This document shows, in pieces, positions 227 to 12,876 of a DNA stretch of 64,000 nt. Numbering within the stretch: the stretch's first letter is position 1; the number at the start of each line of letters is the position of its first letter. The position numbers were made by a program, and so were the translations under genes. The notes below the pieces were generated by a model. That model was not told where the DNA came from. It saw only the letters and a program-made list of their open reading frames with translations, and made no database searches. The stretch is from an uncultured Coriobacteriaceae bacterium. Its GTDB lineage: Bacteria > Actinomycetota > Coriobacteriia > Coriobacteriales > Atopobiaceae. The DNA lies in NCBI GenBank assembly GCA_947426865.1, contig CANEFS010000001.1, forward strand, positions 1 through 64,000. Direction: 5' to 3'.

Positions 227-312
227 CATAGCTTGTGAACACGGACCCAACGTGGCAAACGCGCCGCTTAAGAAAACAAAAAGCCAAGTCAGAAATCGGA
301 AAGAGGAGAATT

Positions 313-3054
313 ATGGCTGAAAAAGAAAAAGCAGTATATCGGTGGGGAATCGACAAGAACGGCAAGGATATCACCGAAGCCGACGCTTCGATGAACTACG
401 TCGTTGGTGGTAAGGGAGCAAATCTTGCCGAGATGGCAAAGATTGGCCTTCCGGTCCCTCCGGGATTTTCTATCACCTGCCAAACCTGCGTTGCTTATTC
501 TGACAACAATAACACCTGGCCAGAGGGCGTTTATGACGAGATTGACGCCGCTCGCGTGGACCTTGAGGACCGCATGGGCAAAAAGCTCGGCGATGCTAAA
601 GATCCGCTGCTGGTTTCCGTTCGCTCGGGAGCTCCTTTCTCCATGCCGGGCATGATGGATACCGTTTTGAACCTTGGTCTGAATGACGAGTCTGTCCAGG
701 GCATTATCGAGCAAACCAACAACCCTCGCTTTGGCTGGGATTCGTATCGCCGCTTCATCCAGATGTTCTCCAATGTTGTTATGGGCATCGACGGCGACCT
801 TTTCGAAGACGCTATCAACGAGCTTAAGGCCAAGCGCGGCGTGAAAGCTGACACCGACCTTACCGCTGAAGACCTTCAAGAGCTCGTCAAAGAGTTCAAG
901 AAGATTTTCTCGGAAAATGTGGACGCCAAAGCCCATCCCGAGGTCGTCGTCAACGGCACCCCCGTCTTCCCCGAGGACCCCTACCTGCAGCTTCGCCTCG
1001 CCATCGAGGCCGTCTTTGGTTCTTGGAACAACGAGCGCGCCATCCTCTACCGCCAGCAAAACAAGATTCCTGATGACTTGGGAACCGCCGTCAACGTGCA
1101 GATCATGGCCTACGGAAACAAGGGTGATGACTCGGCCACCGGCGTTGCCTTCACGCGCAACCCTGCCAACGGCGACAAGGAATTCTACGGTGACTTCCTG
1201 GTAAATGCCCAGGGTGAAGACGTCGTTGCCGGTATTCGTAACACCGAGCCCATCGCTGAGCTCAAACACACGAAGAATCTGGAAGAGGCAGGCGAAGAAC
1301 TCGAGAAGATCTTCACGCTTCTTGAAGACCACTACCACGATATGATGGACATCGAGTTCACGATTGAAAACGGCAAGCTTTGGATGCTTCAAACGCGTGC
1401 CGGAAAACGTACGGCTCTTGCTGCCCTCAAAATCGCCATCGACATGGAGAAAGAGGGCCACATCACCAAAGAGCAGGCCGTCCAGCGCGTCAATCCGCAG
1501 CAACTCGACCAACTTCTGCACCCTCAAATCGATCCCAATGCAACGCTTAACGTGATTGCTACCGGTCTAAACGCTAGCCCCGGCGCTGCTGTGGGTGAAG
1601 TCGTCTTCTCTTCTGACGACGCCGTTGCCCTGGAGGCTGAGGGCAGAAAGTCCATTCTTGTCCGTTGGGAGACGAACCCCGACGACCTCAAAGGTATGGT
1701 TGCCGCTGAAGGTATTCTGACCTCGCACGGTGGAAAGACCTCCCACGCTGCTGTTATCGCGCGTGGCATGGGCGCCCCTTGCGTCTGCGGTGTTGAGGCA
1801 CTTCAAATTGATGCTGCCAACAAGACCGCTGCTGTCTCTGGCACCGACATCGTTCTCCACGAAGGTGACCTCATCTCCATCGACGGAACCACAGGACAAG
1901 TCATGCTGGGTGCCGTCGAGCTCGTCCAGCCTGAGCTCACGGGCGACCTTGAGACCATCCTGACCTGGGCAGACGAGATTCGCACCGATGCAGCCGATGG
2001 ACGTCCCATGGGCGTTCGCGCCAACGCCGACAACCCAGAAGACGCCAAGCTCTCCCTTGAATTTGGCGCAGAAGGCATCGGCCTTTGCCGTACCGAGCAC
2101 ATGTTCTTGGGCGACAGAAAGCGCATCATCCAGGACTTCATCTTGGCCGACGACGAGGCGACGAAGTCGAAGGCTCTCGCAGAGCTTCTTCAAGCCCAAC
2201 AAGGCGACTTCCTGCAAATCTTCAAGACGATGGCAGGACACCCCGTTATCGTTCGTTTGCTCGATCCGCCTCTCCATGAGTTCCTCGACAATCCTCGCGA
2301 GCTTGCCGTAGAAATTGCCAAGCTTGAGGCCACCGACGCCGACCCCAATGTTATCGCCGAGAAGGTCGATCTTCTCGCACGCATCGACGCTATGGTCGAG
2401 GCCAACCCCATGCTCGGTCTTCGTGGTTGCCGCCTGGGCATTATGTATCCCGAGCTCACCGACATGCAAATCACCGCTATCGCCAACGCGACCGCGCAGC
2501 TGAAAAAAGAAGGAATCGATGCGATGCCTGAAATCATGATTCCTCTCGTCTCCACCGAGGCAGAGCTCGCCGTCCTTCGCGAGCAGGCTGAGCGTGTAAT
2601 CGCAGGCGTTGAAGATCGCGAGAAGGTCGAGCTGGAGATTCCTATCGGTACGATGATTGAGCTTCCCCGCGCTGCCCTCACTGCTGACGAGATTGGTAAG
2701 AAGGCCGACTTCTTCAGCTTTGGTACGAACGACTTGACGCAAACCACGTTTGGCTTCAGCCGCGACGACGTCGAGAGCTCCTTTATCCCCACCTACCTGA
2801 AGAAGAAGCTTCTCCCCACGAACCCCTTCGAGACACTCGACCCCGGCGTTGCTAAGCTCGTTGACGCAGGCGTTAAGGGTGGACACGAGGCCAACCCAAA
2901 CATTACGTGTGGTGTCTGTGGTGAGACCGGAGGCGACCCCGATTCCATCCACACCTACTACAAGCTGGGTCTTGACTACGTTTCCTGCTCACCTTACCGT
3001 GTGCCGATTGCTCGTTTGACCGCTGCTCAAGCAAAGCTCGCCGCCAAAAAATAA
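313..3054 (+). CDS. ppdK: Pyruvate, phosphate dikinase
   Basis: Cytoplasmic enzyme that interconverts pyruvate, ATP and phosphate with phosphoenolpyruvate, AMP and pyrophosphate. It can run toward PEP for gluconeogenesis or toward pyruvate as a PPi-linked glycolytic step. The 913-residue product has the usual family length and order: an N-terminal ATP-grasp domain (begins WGIDKNGKDI, with VVGGKGANLAEM), a swivelling phosphohistidine domain with GGKTSHAA (His478 is the phosphorylated residue), and a C-terminal PEP/pyruvate barrel ending in CGVCGETGGDP, where Cys869 matches the family's catalytic cysteine. The ATG at 313 is chosen because AGAGGAG (302-308) precedes it and the family sequence begins right after; the frame is open further upstream from a GTG at 235 without a ribosome site. 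Monocistronic or followed by the lipoprotein at 3160. Confidence 0.97.
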   Translation: MAEKEKAVYRWGIDKNGKDITEADASMNYVVGGKGANLAEMAKIGLPVPPGFSITCQTCVAYSDNNNTWPEGVYDEIDAARVDLEDRMGKKLGDAKDPLLVSVRSGAPFSMPGMMDTVLNLGLNDESVQGIIEQTNNPRFGWDSYRRFIQMFSNVVMGIDGDLFEDAINELKAKRGVKADTDLTAEDLQELVKEFKKIFSENVDAKAHPEVVVNGTPVFPEDPYLQLRLAIEAVFGSWNNERAILYRQQNKIPDDLGTAVNVQIMAYGNKGDDSATGVAFTRNPANGDKEFYGDFLVNAQGEDVVAGIRNTEPIAELKHTKNLEEAGEELEKIFTLLEDHYHDMMDIEFTIENGKLWMLQTRAGKRTALAALKIAIDMEKEGHITKEQAVQRVNPQQLDQLLHPQIDPNATLNVIATGLNASPGAAVGEVVFSSDDAVALEAEGRKSILVRWETNPDDLKGMVAAEGILTSHGGKTSHAAVIARGMGAPCVCGVEALQIDAANKTAAVSGTDIVLHEGDLISIDGTTGQVMLGAVELVQPELTGDLETILTWADEIRTDAADGRPMGVRANADNPEDAKLSLEFGAEGIGLCRTEHMFLGDRKRIIQDFILADDEATKSKALAELLQAQQGDFLQIFKTMAGHPVIVRLLDPPLHEFLDNPRELAVEIAKLEATDADPNVIAEKVDLLARIDAMVEANPMLGLRGCRLGIMYPELTDMQITAIANATAQLKKEGIDAMPEIMIPLVSTEAELAVLREQAERVIAGVEDREKVELEIPIGTMIELPRAALTADEIGKKADFFSFGTNDLTQTTFGFSRDDVESSFIPTYLKKKLLPTNPFETLDPGVAKLVDAGVKGGHEANPNITCGVCGETGGDPDSIHTYYKLGLDYVSCSPYRVPIARLTAAQAKLAAKK

Positions 3055-3159
3055 GGCGTCTGAGCTGTGCCCGAGCCTTGCAAGGAACGCGCACGACAGC
3101 TTAACGAGCCCAAAGGAGTTTTTCAAAACACCAACGTAGCCCAAAGGAACTACGAAACC

Positions 3160-4137
3160 GTGAAGAAAAACGTGAAGACCTTTTTTAAAAACGTACTAAC
3201 GTATGTGATGTGTGGGGTGCTGGCATTGCTGGCACCCCTCGCTTTAAGTGGTTGTGACCTTTTCACGCCAACTCCCGAGAAGGGCAAAGCGCTTGATGAC
3301 TATAAATTCGAAGAGCTCGCACAAATTTCGCAGCTGATTCAAAAGTCGGACAATCCCTATAAAACTGCAGCAGAATATGGGATTTGCGATGAAAATGGTG
3401 TCATTAACGACCAGATTAAACGCTTCAAGCTAAAAGACGATACGGTCTGCGAGGTCCGCGTTATAGGCATCATGGCAGACACACTCTCGCCAGAAGATGC
3501 GGACGTAGACGCTGCCAGCAGCGCAGACGCTGCGGCCACCAGTGATAGTGCCGCCGATACCGGCAAAAAAGCAGGTCTTACCTTCATGTGCGCAGAGGTT
3601 CCCGCGCAAACTCAGTACAACGTCGAGTCCACGGTAAACGGGGGTTGGGAAGCGTCAAATTTGAGAAGCTATTTGAACACAACGATGATGGATAATCTGC
3701 CGGACTATCTTAAAGAAAAAATCGTATCCGTCTCAAAGCTTTCGAACAATTTTGGCATGACGAAAAATACAGAGAATATTACCGCGACGCAGGACAAACT
3801 CTGGGAGCCCTCCGTTGCAGAAGTCAATGGTGTCATACATTGGAATGAGCAGGAATACTATGGCTCGATGGCACCATACGACACGATGTTGAGTTCAGAA
3901 GGAACGCAGTATCAGTGGTTCAAGCAGCAAATGGATGCAAATGGAACCATTCCAAACGATAAGCTTCAAATGACATTTAAAGGAGCGTCTACCGGCTGGT
4001 GGTATCGTTCCGTCTTTCCGCTCTCAACTATGTATGGCGGACAACCCATGGCGCAATACGTCATGAACTCAGGTTATCCTCAGGGAAGACTTTTTGTGAC
4101 CGACACGACGGGGGTGGCTTTCGGTTTCTGCCTTTAA
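3160..4137 (+). CDS. Lipoprotein, DUF6273-like
   Basis: Predicted surface lipoprotein of 325 residues. It starts with a basic n-region (MKKNVKTFFKN), a hydrophobic core, and the lipobox LALSGC, so Cys27 or a neighbour would be lipidated. After an acidic, Ala/Ser-rich linker the C-terminal half contains W-x-SNLRSYLN, LP-DYLKEKI and a Trp/Tyr-rich end, a pattern seen in DUF6273 domains of gut Firmicutes and Actinobacteria. Function unknown. The GTG at 3160 is chosen because it gives a normal signal peptide and has AAAGGA at 3142-3147; the open frame continues upstream to 3067 without a better start. It lies 105 bp after ppdK and could be read through from it. Confidence 0.75.
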   Translation: MKKNVKTFFKNVLTYVMCGVLALLAPLALSGCDLFTPTPEKGKALDDYKFEELAQISQLIQKSDNPYKTAAEYGICDENGVINDQIKRFKLKDDTVCEVRVIGIMADTLSPEDADVDAASSADAAATSDSAADTGKKAGLTFMCAEVPAQTQYNVESTVNGGWEASNLRSYLNTTMMDNLPDYLKEKIVSVSKLSNNFGMTKNTENITATQDKLWEPSVAEVNGVIHWNEQEYYGSMAPYDTMLSSEGTQYQWFKQQMDANGTIPNDKLQMTFKGASTGWWYRSVFPLSTMYGGQPMAQYVMNSGYPQGRLFVTDTTGVAFGFCL

Positions 4138-4413: not shown

Positions 4414-4563
4414 ATGCGTACCCTGGTAACTCTCGAGTGTTCAGAGTGCAAGCGTCGCAATTACACGACGTACAAGAATAAGAATACTCATCCAGATCGT
4501 CTTGAGTTGAAGAAGTACTGTCGCTGGTGCAGAAAGCATACGCTGCACAAAGAGACGCGCTAG
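4414..4563 (+). CDS. rpmG: 50S ribosomal protein L33
   Basis: Small large-subunit ribosomal protein of 49 residues, normal for the family. It has two CxxC pairs (CSEC near residue 9 and CRWC near residue 37), so this is the zinc-binding (C+) form. The ATG at 4414 follows AGAGGAAA (4400-4408), which decides it over upstream in-frame codons. tRNA-Trp follows 7 bp downstream and secE after that, an arrangement common in Actinobacteria. Confidence 0.95.
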
Positions 4564-4570
4564 GAAAAAC

Positions 4571-4647
4571 AGCCCAGTAGCTCCAATTGGTAGAGCAGCG
4601 GTCTCCAAAACCGATGGTTGGAGGTTCGAGTCCTTCCTGGGCTGCCA
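4571..4647 (+). tRNA. trnW: tRNA-Trp (anticodon CCA)
   Basis: A cloverleaf can be folded by eye: acceptor AGCCCAG (4571-4577) with CTGGGCT (4637-4643), D-stem GCTC/GAGC, anticodon loop CTCCAAA with anticodon CCA, and T-arm GGAGG-TTCGAGT-CCTTC. The discriminator is G at 4644 and the 3' CCA (4645-4647) is encoded. It lies in the rpmG-secE gap and is probably co-transcribed with both. Confidence 0.95.
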
Positions 4648-4684: not shown

Positions 4685-5506
4685 ATGGCGAACAAGAACA
4701 GACAGAAAAGAGCGGCGAGAAAGGCGCGTCAGGCTCGGCGTCAAGAGGCGCAGGCCACGCAAGAGGCGCAACTTGCTGCAAGCGAGAAGTCTCTTGGCAA
4801 GCTCTTTGGTCTTGGGGGAGGGTGCGACAAGAGCGCCAAAGGTGCCAAGGGCGCTAAAGACGCCAAAGGTGCTAAAGGCGCTAAGGGCGCTGTCAAGGAT
4901 GTAAAGGCAGGCGCCAAGGAGAGCATCAAGGGCGCGGACGGCAAGAGCGCAGAGGCTCCTGAGAAAAAGAGCGTTCTCGATCATCCCCTCACAAAAGAAG
5001 AGAAGAAAGAGGCTAAAAAAGCCGCTGCAAAAGCGAAGAAGCAGGCGAAGATTCAAAAACGCCGCGATAAGAAAATCTCTTTAATCGATAAAAAAATTGC
5101 GGCTGCTCAAAAAGAGGTTCAAAAGACCAAAGTAGAGCAGGAAAAAACCGCGCGCATTCTGCGTGAAGAAAAAGAGAAAGGCACGCCCTCCAAAAAAGCT
5201 GTTAAAGCTGCCGCTATGGCAGAGGTCCAGGCAGATGATGCTTTGGGGCGTCTTGCCAAGCTCGAAGACAAGAAGAAAGAAAAAGCGAAGAACCTAAGCC
5301 TTTGGAGGCGCTTCGTGCGTGTTCTCTCGAACATCAAATCAGAGATGAAGCGCGTCTCGTGGCCCACGCGAAAAGAGCTTCGCAACTACACGATTGCCGT
5401 TATCGTTTTGCTGATCATCTTTGGACTCATTGTTTGGGCAATTGACCTTGGCGTTGTCAAAGGTCTCGTTAAATTCGACGATATTCGAAGCCTCATTGGG
5501 AGCTAG
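4685..5506 (+). CDS. secE: Preprotein translocase subunit SecE with long basic N-terminal extension
   Basis: Membrane subunit of the SecYEG protein-export channel. The last 65 residues are classic single-span SecE: RFVRVLSNIKSEMKRVSWPT, then a transmembrane stretch YTIAVIVLLIIFGLIVWAID. The protein is 273 residues, whereas short-type SecE is usually 60-130. The first 200 residues are rich in Lys and Ala and include a collagen-like run of GAK/DAK triplets (about residues 41-55, DNA 4838-4895) and a predicted helical Lys/Glu region. The ATG at 4685 is the first start after the tRNA; no strong ribosome site is seen there, and a start further in would still leave an extension. The stop is 2 bp before nusG, so the two are translated together. 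Confidence 0.88.
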   Translation: MANKNRQKRAARKARQARRQEAQATQEAQLAASEKSLGKLFGLGGGCDKSAKGAKGAKDAKGAKGAKGAVKDVKAGAKESIKGADGKSAEAPEKKSVLDHPLTKEEKKEAKKAAAKAKKQAKIQKRRDKKISLIDKKIAAAQKEVQKTKVEQEKTARILREEKEKGTPSKKAVKAAAMAEVQADDALGRLAKLEDKKKEKAKNLSLWRRFVRVLSNIKSEMKRVSWPTRKELRNYTIAVIVLLIIFGLIVWAIDLGVVKGLVKFDDIRSLIGS

Positions 5507-5508
5507 GC

Positions 5509-6054
5509 ATGGCAAAGCATTGGTATATCATCCACACCTATTCTGGTTACGAAAAGCGCGTACAAGACGAAATCAAGCGCCGCATCGAGTCGTTTGGTCT
5601 GCAAGACCATGTTTTTGACACGAAGGTTTTCTCGGAAGAGGTAACCGAGGTCAAAGAGGGCGGTAAGCAAATCACGCGCGAGCACAACATCTATCCGGGC
5701 TACGTCCTGGTGCGTATGGAGGTCGACGACAACTCCTGGTCGGTCGTGAGAAACACCCCCGGTGTTACCGGCTTCGTGGGCATCGACGGAAAGCCGGCGC
5801 CTTTGACGCGCGCGCAGTTTGACAAGATGATGCGCCGCGTTGGAGGCGCCACGGGCGGTAAAGGCAAGCCCAAGCGCACCGAGACCGACTTCAAGGAAGG
5901 CCAGTCGATTCGCGTGGTCTCCGGGCCGCTCGCCGACTTCGACGGCACGATTACTGAGGTCGCTCCCGAGAGCGGAAAAGTCAAGGTATCCCTTACTATT
6001 TTTGGTCGAGAGACCCCGGTCGAGCTCAACCTTGACCAGATTGTCTCGGCTTAA
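5509..6054 (+). CDS. nusG: Transcription termination/antitermination protein NusG
   Basis: Elongation factor that binds RNA polymerase and links it to Rho or the ribosome. The 181-residue product has the NGN domain at the N-terminus (begins KHWYIIHTYSGYEKRVQDEI, with YPGYVLVRM and VVRNTPGVTGFVG) and a C-terminal KOW domain (GQSIRVVSGPLADFDGTI). Length and sequence are standard. It starts 2 bp after secE and precedes the L11/L1 genes, the usual order. Confidence 0.97.
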   Translation: MAKHWYIIHTYSGYEKRVQDEIKRRIESFGLQDHVFDTKVFSEEVTEVKEGGKQITREHNIYPGYVLVRMEVDDNSWSVVRNTPGVTGFVGIDGKPAPLTRAQFDKMMRRVGGATGGKGKPKRTETDFKEGQSIRVVSGPLADFDGTITEVAPESGKVKVSLTIFGRETPVELNLDQIVSA

Positions 6055-6107: not shown

Positions 6108-6656
6108 ATGGCAGAAAAAAAGCCGGTAAGCATCGTTAAGTTGCAAATTCCTGCAGGACAAGCAACGCCCGCGCCCCCGATTGGACCCATTCTGTCCGGT
6201 GCGCAAGTCAATATCCAGCAGTTTTGCCAGGAATTCAACGCACGCACGCAAGACCAACACGGAGACATCATCCCCGTCGAGATTTCGGTCTACGAGGATC
6301 GCTCCTTCACATTCATCACCAAAACCCCGCCCGCCGCGCAGCTCATTATGAAGGAGCTGAAAATCAAAGGTGGCTCGGGTGTTCCCCAGGCCGAGAAGGT
6401 CGGCGAAATCTCGCAAGCTCAACTTGAGAAGATTGCCGAGATGAAAATGGCCGACTTGAACGCGAACGACGTCGAGCATGCCGCCCGCATTATCGCCGGT
6501 ACCGCGCGCTCCATGGGCGTTGTGGTTGAGGGCATGGAATCCTCTCAGCCACGCAAGGCCGTTAAGAAAGGTGGCAAGAAAGAGGCCTCTCCTGCTGCTC
6601 CTGCCGCTGCTGATAGCACTGAGGCAGAAGGTGGCGAGGAGGAGAAGGCCGAGTAG
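6108..6656 (+). CDS. rplK: 50S ribosomal protein L11 with acidic C-terminal tail
   Basis: L11 of the GTPase-associated centre, the binding platform for elongation factors and the L10/L12 stalk. Residues 1-143 are standard ([17 protein letters not shown], then [12 protein letters not shown]). The family normally ends there; this one continues about 40 residues to 182 with a Lys/Gly patch and then an Ala/Glu-rich acidic tail ending GGEEEKAE. The ATG at 6108 follows the ribosome-binding site inside the L1 element. rplA follows 81 bp later behind its own copy of that element. Confidence 0.96.
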
Positions 6657-9180: not shown

Positions 9181-12100
9181 GTGGCTACCGTAAAATCTTC
9201 AACCAAATCCCCAACAACAAAAACTGAGCGAGTTGATTTTAGCAAAATCGCCCCTGCTATGGAACTCCCCAATCTGATTCGCGTTCAGAAGGAGTCCTAC
9301 AAGCGCTTCATGGAGGAGGGTCTCAAGCAGATCTTCGAAGATGCTTCTCCTATCGAGAATAACACGGGAACTTTGCAGCTCGTTTTTGGTGAGCACGAAT
9401 TCGACGATCCTCCCCACTCGGTAGAGGAGTGCAAGGCAAAGGACATGACCTTCCAAGCGCCTTTGTTCGTCATGGCTCGCCTCATCGACAAAGAAACGGG
9501 TGAAATTCAAGAGCCCGAGTTCACCTTCATGGGAGACGTTCCTCTCATGACCGACTACGGCACGTTCGTCATCAACGGCACCGAGCGCGTGGTCGTATCG
9601 CAGCTCGTGCGCTCACCTGGGGTGTACTTCTCGAAAGAAGTGGACTCTGGCGTGCCCGTGCAAAAAGTGCAATTCATCCCCACACGCGGCGCTTGGCTTG
9701 AGTTCGAAATCGACAAGCACGGACGCCTCGTGGTCTCCATTGATCGCAAGCGTCGCCAAAACGCCACGCTTCTTTTGCGCGCCTTAAACATCGCCACCAC
9801 CGACGATGAGATTAAGGAGCTGCTGGGCGACTCGGCCGTTATCCAAGATACGCTTGAGGCCGACACCGCCACCACACGCGAAGAAGCTCTCATTGAGCTT
9901 TACAAGCGCCAGCGCCCCGGCGAGCCTCCTACCGTCGACGCCTCGCACTCCCTCATCGAGGGCCTCTTTTTTAATCCGCAGCGCTACGATTTAGCGCGGG
10001 TTGGTCGCTACAAGATCAACAAGAAGCTTGGCCTGGATGTGAAAAAAGGTGTCTACACGCTGACGAAAGAGGACATCGTTTCTGCGCTGAAGTACCTGTT
10101 GGCCCTTCGCGACGGCGACCCCAATTGCTTCGTCGACGACATCGACCACTTTGGAAATCGCCGCGTGCGCACCGTCGGTGAGCTCGTGCAAAATCAGTTC
10201 CGCATTGGTATGAGCCGCATGGAGCGCATGGTCCGCGACCGCATGGCCTCCAACGAGCCGGAAGACCTCACCCCGCAAAAACTCATCAACATCCGCCCGA
10301 TTGTAGCCGCCATCAAGGAGTTCTTTGGCTCCTCGCAACTCTCGCAGTTCATGGACCAGGCAAACCCGCTTTCCGGCCTCACCCACAAGCGCCGTCTTTC
10401 TGCTTTGGGACCCGGAGGTTTAGCCGGCCATAAGTCAGGCTCTTCTCGGCGTACGAACGTACCGACTGCCGTGCGCGACGTTCACAACTCACACTATGCA
10501 AGAATGTGCCCGCTTGAGACTCCGGAAGGCCCCAACATCGGCCTCATCGGAACGCTCGCGCTTTTTGCAAATGTCAACGAGTACGGCTTCATCCAGACCC
10601 CTTATCGCAAAGTCGAGAAGGGCGTCGCCACAGACCTTATTGAGTGGATGACGGCAGACGAGGAAGAAAAACACGTTATCGCACCTGCCGATACGCTGAT
10701 TGATCCTAAAACCGGACACCTCCTGGAGGTCTCGCCCGAGACCGGAAAGCTGCGCCGTGCTGAGCGCGTCGTGGCCCGTACCCGCGACTTCGACGGCTCC
10801 TTTGGTGCGCCTGCAGAGTGTTCCGTTAAAGAGATTGACTACATGGATGTCTCGCCCCGCCAGCTTTTAAGTGTGGCCGCGACCCTCATCCCGTTCTTGG
10901 AGCACGATGACGCGAAGCGTACGCTCATGGGCGCCAACATGCAGCGCCAGGCCGTGCCGCTTCTGCGCCCCACCGCTCCTTACGTGGGAACCGGTATGGA
11001 GCGTCGCGCCGCTCTGGACTCCGGCGAGGTCATCACCGCTGAGTATGCAGGAACGGTCAAAGAGGTGGACGCAAACCACATCACCCTCTCCACCAAGAGT
11101 GAAGGCGAGATAACCTACAACTTGCCTAAGTATCAGCGCTCCAATCAGTCGACCTGCATCAACCATCGCCCCATCGTCCACGCCGGACAGAAAGTGAAGA
11201 AGGGCGAGGCGCTTGCCGATTCAACCTCCGTTGACCACACCGAGCTTGCCCTTGGTGCCAACCTGACCGTGGCCTACATGCCTTGGGAAGGCTTCAACTA
11301 CGAAGACGGTATCGTCGTCTCAGAGCGCGTGGTCCAACAAGACCTTCTCACCTCGATTTCCATTTCGCGCCACGAGATTGACGCGCGCGACACGAAGCTT
11401 GACAAAGAAGAGATTACCCGCGAGATTCCCAACCTCTCTGAAGAGGCTCTGGCAGATTTGGACGACAACGGCATTATCCGTATCGGCGCAGAGGTAGGCC
11501 CGGGAGACATTCTCGTCGGAAAAGTGACGCCTAAGACAGAAGTGGCAGAGACGGCAGAAGGACGTCTGCTTCGCGCCATCTTTGGTACGAAGGCAAATGA
11601 CGTTCGCGATACCTCCTTGCGCATGCCGCACGGTGCCTACGGTCGCGTCGTGGACGTTGAATACTTCAGCCGCGAGGAAGGCGACGATTTACAACCCGGC
11701 GTCAACGAGATGGTCCGCGTTTTCGTCGCTCAGCGCAGAAAGATTGCAGAAGGTGACAAAATCGCTGGTCGCCACGGTAACAAGGGTGTTGTCTGCCGCA
11801 TTTTGCCGGTGGAGGATATGCCTTACATGGCCGACGGTACCCCCGTCGATGTTCTTCTCGATCCCTTGGGCGTGCCCTCCCGTATGAATATGGGACAGCT
11901 TCTTGAGTGCCACTTGGGATGGTGTGCAAGCAACGGTTGGGATACGGAAAGCGCTCACTCCAAGCAATACGTTCCCGGCCCGATGCCCGTCTCGACACCC
12001 GTTTTTGACGGCGCCACCGGCAGCGAAGTGGCCGAGTGCCTGCGCCGCACGAACACGAATCTTTTGAACAAAGCGAAGGAAGAGTACGGCTCGAAGATGA

Positions 12101-12876
12101 ACGAGGTGTTCGTCCCGCAGCTGAACGATCTGGGCAAGATGACGCTTTACGATGGGCGCACCGGCGAGCCTTTCCGCGACCCCATCACCGTGGGAACCTC
12201 CTACATCTTGAAGCTTGGCCACATGGTCGACGACAAGATTCACGCCCGCTCCACGGGCCCTTACTCGCTTATCACTCAGCAGCCGTTGGGAGGTAAGGCG
12301 CAGTTTGGTGGTCAGCGTTTTGGAGAGATGGAAGTTTGGGCCCTCTATGCATACGGCGCGGCCAACGTGTTGCAAGAAATCCTCACGATTAAGTCGGACG
12401 ATACCGACGGGCGCGTGAAGACCTACGAGGCCATCGTCAAGGGCGAAAACGTGCCGACTCCTGGCATCCCCGAGGCCTTCAAGGTTCTTGTGAACGAGAT
12501 TCGTTCGCTCGCGCTTGCCATCGAGCCCATCTCCTACAAGAAGAAGACGGAAGTTGACCTTGAGCTTCTGGCCGACGGCTCGCTTGAGATGACTGAGTCA
12601 GAGGGGCTCTCCGTTGAGAACCTGGCCGACGGCTCCGTTGACGAGCTAGCAGATGTCGAGTCCATTCTGGACGCTCCTTCAGCCGAGAAACCCGAGGCAG
12701 AAGTTGCAGGCGTTGACGCGGAGGCCGACGGCGCTGCCGCTGGCGAGGGCGCTGAGGCCGCTGACGCTGACGCAGAGGCCACTCCCGTTGCCGAAGCAAC
12801 GATTGAAACGGAAGATCTTCTCGATATCCCCGAGTTGGAAAACGAGGAGAAAGAGCTGGAAGAGAAGCAGCAGTAA
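9181..12876 (+). CDS. rpoB: DNA-directed RNA polymerase beta subunit
   Basis: Catalytic core subunit of RNA polymerase, 1231 residues. The rifampicin region is intact ([20 protein letters not shown], then [11 protein letters not shown]), as are the later conserved blocks [13 protein letters not shown] and [20 protein letters not shown]. After the usual end ([13 protein letters not shown]) there is an extra tail of nearly 100 residues very rich in Glu, Asp and Ala. The GTG at 9181 is set by AAGGAGGAA (9164-9172); no ATG gives the conserved N-terminus. rpoC follows after 160 bp. Confidence 0.97.

Follow-up and report, generated by a model that had tools for sequence, protein, structure and literature searches.

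The SecE protein encoded in the window (the whole stretch of 64,000 nucleotides analysed here, from an uncultured Coriobacteriaceae bacterium) has 207 residues ahead of its conserved core, and is an extreme version of the short arm known in its relatives. The explanation we tentatively prefer, at somewhat less than even confidence, is that the protein is a true SecE, with a cytosolic N-terminal arm that was lengthened approximately 2.5-fold on this lineage and acts as an electrostatic tether. The usual view of SecE is of a minimal clamp on SecY; here the arm is about three times the length of the core, and ribosomal proteins of the same genome carry tails too, which adds to the interest of the arm. 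Should the arm prove to bind ribosomes, SecE would serve both as a clamp and as a docking factor, and the lineage would be a natural test of the function of translation-machinery tails, a question left open by the work on Mycoplasma.

The secE open reading frame spans positions 4685–5506 of the plus strand including the stop codon (coding codons 4685–5503), with a translation of 273 amino acids as in the preliminary description. Both SecE profiles match well above their cut-offs and near the C-terminus, PF00584 at residues 214–261 only (65.7 bits, cut-off 22.7) and TIGR00964 at residues 215–261 (57.5 bits, cut-off 27.55), and this is the single SecE match in the whole genome, which also encodes SecY. 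Profiles and structural model together place the core at residues 208–273 (5306–5503, plus strand), with predicted helices ending at 223 and spanning 229–272 and a conserved Trp-Pro, as expected for an amphipathic helix, a hinge and a single membrane span. The conserved part is thus the last 65 or so of 273 residues, as had been claimed, while the extension, previously placed at 4838–5300, is present but longer, running from 4685 to 5305. The gene order is rpmG, tRNA-Trp, secE, nusG, rplK, with rpmG (L33) at 4414–4563 (an open reading frame with orthologues in relatives), tRNA-Trp at 4571–4647 (ARAGORN) and nusG, directly adjoining secE, at 5509–6054 (PF02357), all on the plus strand. Upstream, between rpmG and a gene at 235–3054, lies an open reading frame (3067–4137) that matches DUF6273 and begins with a lipoprotein-like N-terminus. 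The genome assembly is 1.04 Mb in 29 contigs, is approximately 94% complete by estimate, and is the sole representative of its genus among those compared.

Because the interpretation depends on where translation begins, the start codon deserves attention. In the Atopobiaceae, 119 of 140 genomes gave a match, 118 of them above the SecE cut-off, and 69 loci were read after L050 (not a SecE) and L001 (a duplicate) had been left out. An Arg-rich N-terminal pattern fits 64 of these 69 proteins, that of the window included; several positions of the motif are fixed by the search pattern itself, whereas Arg19 is left free by it and still occurs in all 64. Over roughly the first 20 residues the proteins are much more similar across the family than in the linker that follows. 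The conserved family motif at the N-terminus places the start at 4685. Within the arm, pairwise comparison of the five full triplets of its repeat (30 codon pairs) gives 0, 4 and 18 differences at codon positions 1, 2 and 3 respectively, and the codon usage score of the 207-residue arm (0.593) is higher than in any of 500 random synonymous recodings (maximum 0.563). Both the codon usage and the variation at third positions indicate that the arm region is translated, in agreement with the start at 4685. The Shine-Dalgarno-like stretch before 4685 is weak and, judged by eye, stronger in most of the relatives listed, which would favour translation from near 5216–5290 with the arm as an untranslated open frame; given the family motif and the coding-type signature of the arm, we regard this as very improbable, and a start near 5290, which the preliminary description had named as the finding that would overturn it, is not supported. 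An assembly artefact or chimera in this metagenome-type assembly seems more improbable still: there are 29 contigs and a single genome in the genus, but the gene is a single open frame whose tip and core both match the family type, its neighbours stand in the usual order, and other tails occur at separate places on the same contig.

The arm is composed of several distinct parts. The Arg-rich tip with the family start motif occupies residues 1–42 (4685–4810, plus strand) and is modelled as a helix at 2–40. It is followed by a low-complexity linker at residues 43–103 (4811–4993, plus strand), mostly predicted to be disordered (pLDDT below 50 over most of 44–94), within which tandem-repeat arrays lie at 4824–4891 and a GAK/DAK triplet run, GAK-GAK-DAK-GAK-GAK-GA, at residues 53–69 (4841–4891, plus strand). 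Residues 104–207 (4994–5305, plus strand) form a predicted basic helical hairpin, with helix 104–163, a turn at 164–169 and a second helix from 170. The net charge of residues 1–204 is +31, compared to +8 to +16 in eleven relatives, and the cytosolic side of the arm follows from the general topology of SecE. Amphipathic periodicity as strong as that of helix 104–163 was reached by 10 of 300 shuffles, and that of helix 170–223 by 9 of 300. The proposed likeness of the triplet run to collagen does not hold, as there are only five full triplets, one of which starts with Asp, with no Pro and predicted disorder; a collagen-like repeat protein, with a long run of Gly at every third position and many Pro, was accordingly rejected.

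An AlphaFold2 model, computed from the window SecE with 14 relatives (mean pLDDT 76.9, pTM 0.33), contains helices at 2–40, 104–163, 170–223 and 229–272, and the hairpin formed by 104–163 and 170–223 runs into the SecE amphipathic helix. In the model of a relative (L102) there are helices at 2–28, 65–82 and 88–127 with disorder at 33–57 and no hairpin, and comparison of the two suggests that the longer tether and the basic hairpin are the added parts. Foldseek returned no match in the PDB at an E-value of 0.001 or better; VIA-align gave a single row (Z 3.8, residues 128–199), which reflects only the fold-back of the hairpin in the model. Acquisition of a foreign domain was considered and rejected, with nothing below E 7.7 in NCBIfam for residues 96–205 and a best E-value of 0.58 among PDB sequences.

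Basic arms are common on the SecE proteins of Actinomycetota, and that of the window is the longest verified. The distance from the start to the core Trp-Pro is 72–96 residues (median 79) in the family rows measured, a range that excludes two of the 69 rows (L010 and L038) in which the pattern recognised no start, but 225 residues in the window. The next longest among 99 family and order loci is 131 (L087), and inspection by eye of 80 named loci from Coriobacteriia, other Actinomycetota, Bacillota and Chloroflexota revealed no comparable arm. The length comparison across Coriobacteriia that had been proposed as a check therefore bears out the unusual length, and the observation itself, of a SecE with a Lys-rich, GAK-containing extension of about 200 residues, is real, with 207 residues backed by coding evidence and the family motif. 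The implied picture of a SecE that is otherwise armless fares less well, as Lys/Ala-rich basic arms of roughly 50–110 residues, a few reaching about 157, occur in relatives of the same family, order and phylum. What stands of the earlier interpretation is the long, positively charged and presumably cytosolic extension; the suggested contact with ribosomal RNA is possible, and the armless comparison and the collagen analogy do not stand.

Searches of the order gave matches in 282 of 297 genomes, with lengths known for the matches listed, and those of a phylum sample in 144 of 149, from which ten loci with long open frames were read. In two genomes of one Actinomycetota genus, G456 (L217) and G438 (L219), the domain is preceded by Lys/Ala/Pro-rich arms, 157 residues long in the first and 138 in the second, compared to 213 in the window; they represent an independent parallel in another genus of the phylum. 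Three others (G470, G403 and G453) have open frames longer than that of the window, which from position and composition we read as upstream non-coding sequence, and in G248 and the open frames read from family f5 the length derives from C-terminal tails or upstream sequence, with no comparable arm; the rows for L077 and L078 were excluded from this reading. A contig search with the window SecE as query found no relative. In several SecE proteins (L073, L081, L082, L083 and L084 of family f5, L085 of f2, and L114) tails are situated C-terminal of the membrane span; they are long (short in L084), rich in Asp, Thr, Ala or Pro, expected to be extracellular, and form a mirror image of the N-terminal arm in the window.

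The phylogenetic position of the window is informative as to when the arm grew. In the NusG tree its sequence has an end branch of 0.6, longer than any other (median 0.056), and clusters with G022, G018, G028 and G029 at a support of 87, although the placement of so long a branch is unsure. All four of these neighbours have short SecE arms, so it is most likely that the arm lengthened on the fast-evolving, reduced-genome branch leading to the window.

SecE is not the only protein affected. In the rpmG-secE-rpoBC-str and S10-spc-alpha regions we set 43 genes against those of six relatives (eight or nine reference rows for a few genes), and found net gains of at least 20 residues in eight of them, including 6 of 33 ribosomal proteins: SecE +141, L17 +120, L22 +99, S5 +99, RpoB +51, L11 +39, L29 +37 and L15 +28. 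RpoA shows a net loss of 37, probably from start choice. With every genome serving once as the subject, and with gains at the N-terminus set aside, 7 of 40 genes have Lys/Ala-rich gains here, compared to one each in G021 (L11) and G059 (L16) and none in G022, G018, G003 and G028; gains that are not Lys/Ala-rich also occur in the relatives (S17, L6, L10, L2, Adk) and are probably start artefacts. A scan for tails gave 13 hits against 2, in 216 and 202 reading frames respectively, from gene sets that differ between the two, and is given no weight here. Within the window, L11 (rplK, 6108–6656, plus strand) has a C-terminal tail of 40 residues at 6534–6653, giving 182 amino acids compared to about 142 in nearly all relatives, and RpoB (9181–12876, plus strand) has an acidic low-complexity tail within its C-terminal stretch at 12541–12873. 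In a second region of the genome (L182, G000:C1:211700-231000) five ribosomal proteins, L22 (from about 3319), L29 (5154), S5 (9047), L15 (10098) and L17 (16756), carry Lys/Ala/Glu/Pro-rich tails and exceed their counterparts in relatives by 28 to 120 residues; the S5 tail contains KGAx repeats reminiscent of the GAK run in SecE. The additions to SecE, L22 (+13), S5, L29 (+4) and L15 are basic, that to L11 is near neutral, and those to L17 (−12) and RpoB are acidic. Among the sampled proteins that we take to line the exit rim, three of five are extended (L17, L22 and L29, not L23 or L24), compared to 3 of 28 others, a post hoc comparison with Fisher p = 0.03.

There is no DNA similarity between any of the eight tails, so their origins are separate, and a copied or mobile element behind them all was rejected. 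General slippage was rejected likewise, as tandem arrays number 45 in 231,001 bases compared to 39 in 232,602 bases of a relative, with no clear excess. SecY is unchanged in length (net −1) and YidC, at 257 amino acids, has no long open frame, so that YidC following the same route as SecE was rejected and nothing suggests that the partners of SecE in the channel changed to match. Lys/Ala/Glu-rich N-terminal stretches, which may be normal in relatives, are also seen in IF-2 (L198:4229-7306), a sigma-70 factor (L198:13328-15271) and Rho (L201:11632-13188) of this genome. Elsewhere, a long Ala/Lys/Glu tail is present on the ribosomal protein L31 of G022, a neighbour of the window by NusG (L204:15955-16428), and C-terminal extensions of L11 are common in other families of the order, with 160–197 instead of 142 amino acids (L093, L091, L106, L082, L077).

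Among known systems, the window protein shares with the single-span SecE of Bacillus and Streptomyces (PF00584, TIGR00964) the core domain, adjacency to nusG, one predicted span and a cytosolic N-terminus, but differs in having 207 residues before the core. The solved SecE chains matched are 56–140 residues long and align only with residues 207–264 (a row for the ribosomal protein eL31 was left out), and the 94-residue SecE of S. coelicolor has been shown to be a membrane protein anchored by a C-terminal span (PMC3087755). With other SecE proteins of Atopobiaceae and Actinomycetota it shares the Arg-rich start motif and Ala/Lys linker, although its arm is about 2.5 times longer and has a predicted hairpin absent from the modelled relative. 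We found nothing in the literature on SecE in Coriobacteriia or on lysine-rich SecE in Actinobacteria, and the available part of PMC8082313 makes no statement on N-terminal SecE arms. Ribosome binding has been described for the basic tails of Oxa1, YidC and Alb3, and Alb3 binds the acidic tail of uL4c in chloroplasts (PMC8733628). The SecE arm resembles these tails in its positive charge (+31 over residues 1–204), its ribosome side as taken from general SecE topology, and its place on a membrane-insertion component. Those tails are C-terminal and belong to a different protein family, whereas the SecE arm is N-terminal; the likeness is taken as an analogy, and ribosome binding here is putative. 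The protein has a SecE domain only, with no 60KD_IMP match, and YidC is encoded by a separate gene.

In the model that we favour, the starting point is the sequence itself, which retains the family design (a tip rich in Arg, an Ala/Lys linker that varies, and the SecE core) and has some 140 extra residues between tip and core; the added part is predicted to comprise a disordered tether that contains the GAK run, together with a basic hairpin that stacks against the amphipathic helix. The arm probably acts as an electrostatic tether at the ribosome-translocon interface, a function we infer from its composition and position: a family-constant Arg-rich tip on a variable tether beside the translocon mouth suggests electrostatic contact. 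Next to the translocon, the tip and the Lys-rich helices would touch rRNA, the tails of ribosomal proteins or anionic lipid, and a longer tether would give a greater reach. Consistent with this are the start motif (64 of 69, Arg19 in all 64) ahead of a freely varying linker, the start-to-Trp-Pro distance of 225 compared to 72–96, the codon-level constraint in the arm, the new hairpin with amphipathic helices, the charge of +31 compared to +8 to +16, gains in 8 of 43 orthologues with at most one Lys/Ala-rich gain per relative, and ribosome binding by the basic tails of Oxa1, YidC and Alb3 (PMC8733628). The ribosomal-protein tails of the same genome suggest that the whole surface of the translation machinery has been remodelled. 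Against the tether stand the single genome in the genus as a basis for constraint on the added part, the lack of a matched change in SecY or YidC, a model pTM of only 0.33, and the presence of low-complexity tails on several proteins, some of them acidic (L17, RpoB), which would also fit unspecific growth.

That last point leads to a serious rival, which explains the breadth of the tail pattern nearly as well and which we consider a substantial possibility: the arm is translated but its added part has no specific job, a reduced and fast-evolving genome having tolerated the growth of Lys/Ala/Glu tails on the free termini of abundant proteins. Similar tails on L11, L15, L17, L22, L29, S5 and RpoB, their differing charge signs, their separate origins and the long NusG branch all agree with such drift. 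However, there is no excess of tandem arrays compared to a relative, the helices of the hairpin are not featureless but amphipathic, and a genome undergoing reduction is usually expected to have its proteins become shorter, not longer. It is unlikely that the arm instead acts on membranes or nucleic acids generally (anionic lipids, the nucleoid, mRNA) and not on the ribosome; a helix rich in Arg and Lys, lying beside one at the membrane surface, can bind any polyanion, anionic lipid included, and the sequence does not discriminate, but the extended set is mostly ribosomal and includes three of the five sampled proteins of the presumed exit rim. A bolder reading, to which we give a slightly better but still low chance, is a coordinated, lineage-specific rebuild, in which the +31 arm would dock on the new exit-side tails (basic on L22 and L29, acidic on L17) and strengthen or replace part of the usual docking in a reduced genome, with the L17 tail as partner of the SecE arm, much as the uL4c tail is for Alb3.

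The nearest precedent for the tails is Mycoplasma pneumoniae, where 11 of 52 ribosomal proteins are extended, the L22 and L29 extensions being structured and function largely unknown (PMC9534751). In the genome described here 6 of 33 ribosomal proteins are longer by more than 20 residues, L22 and L29 likewise among them, although the Mycoplasma extensions were measured against E. coli and ours against family relatives, and here SecE is affected as well.
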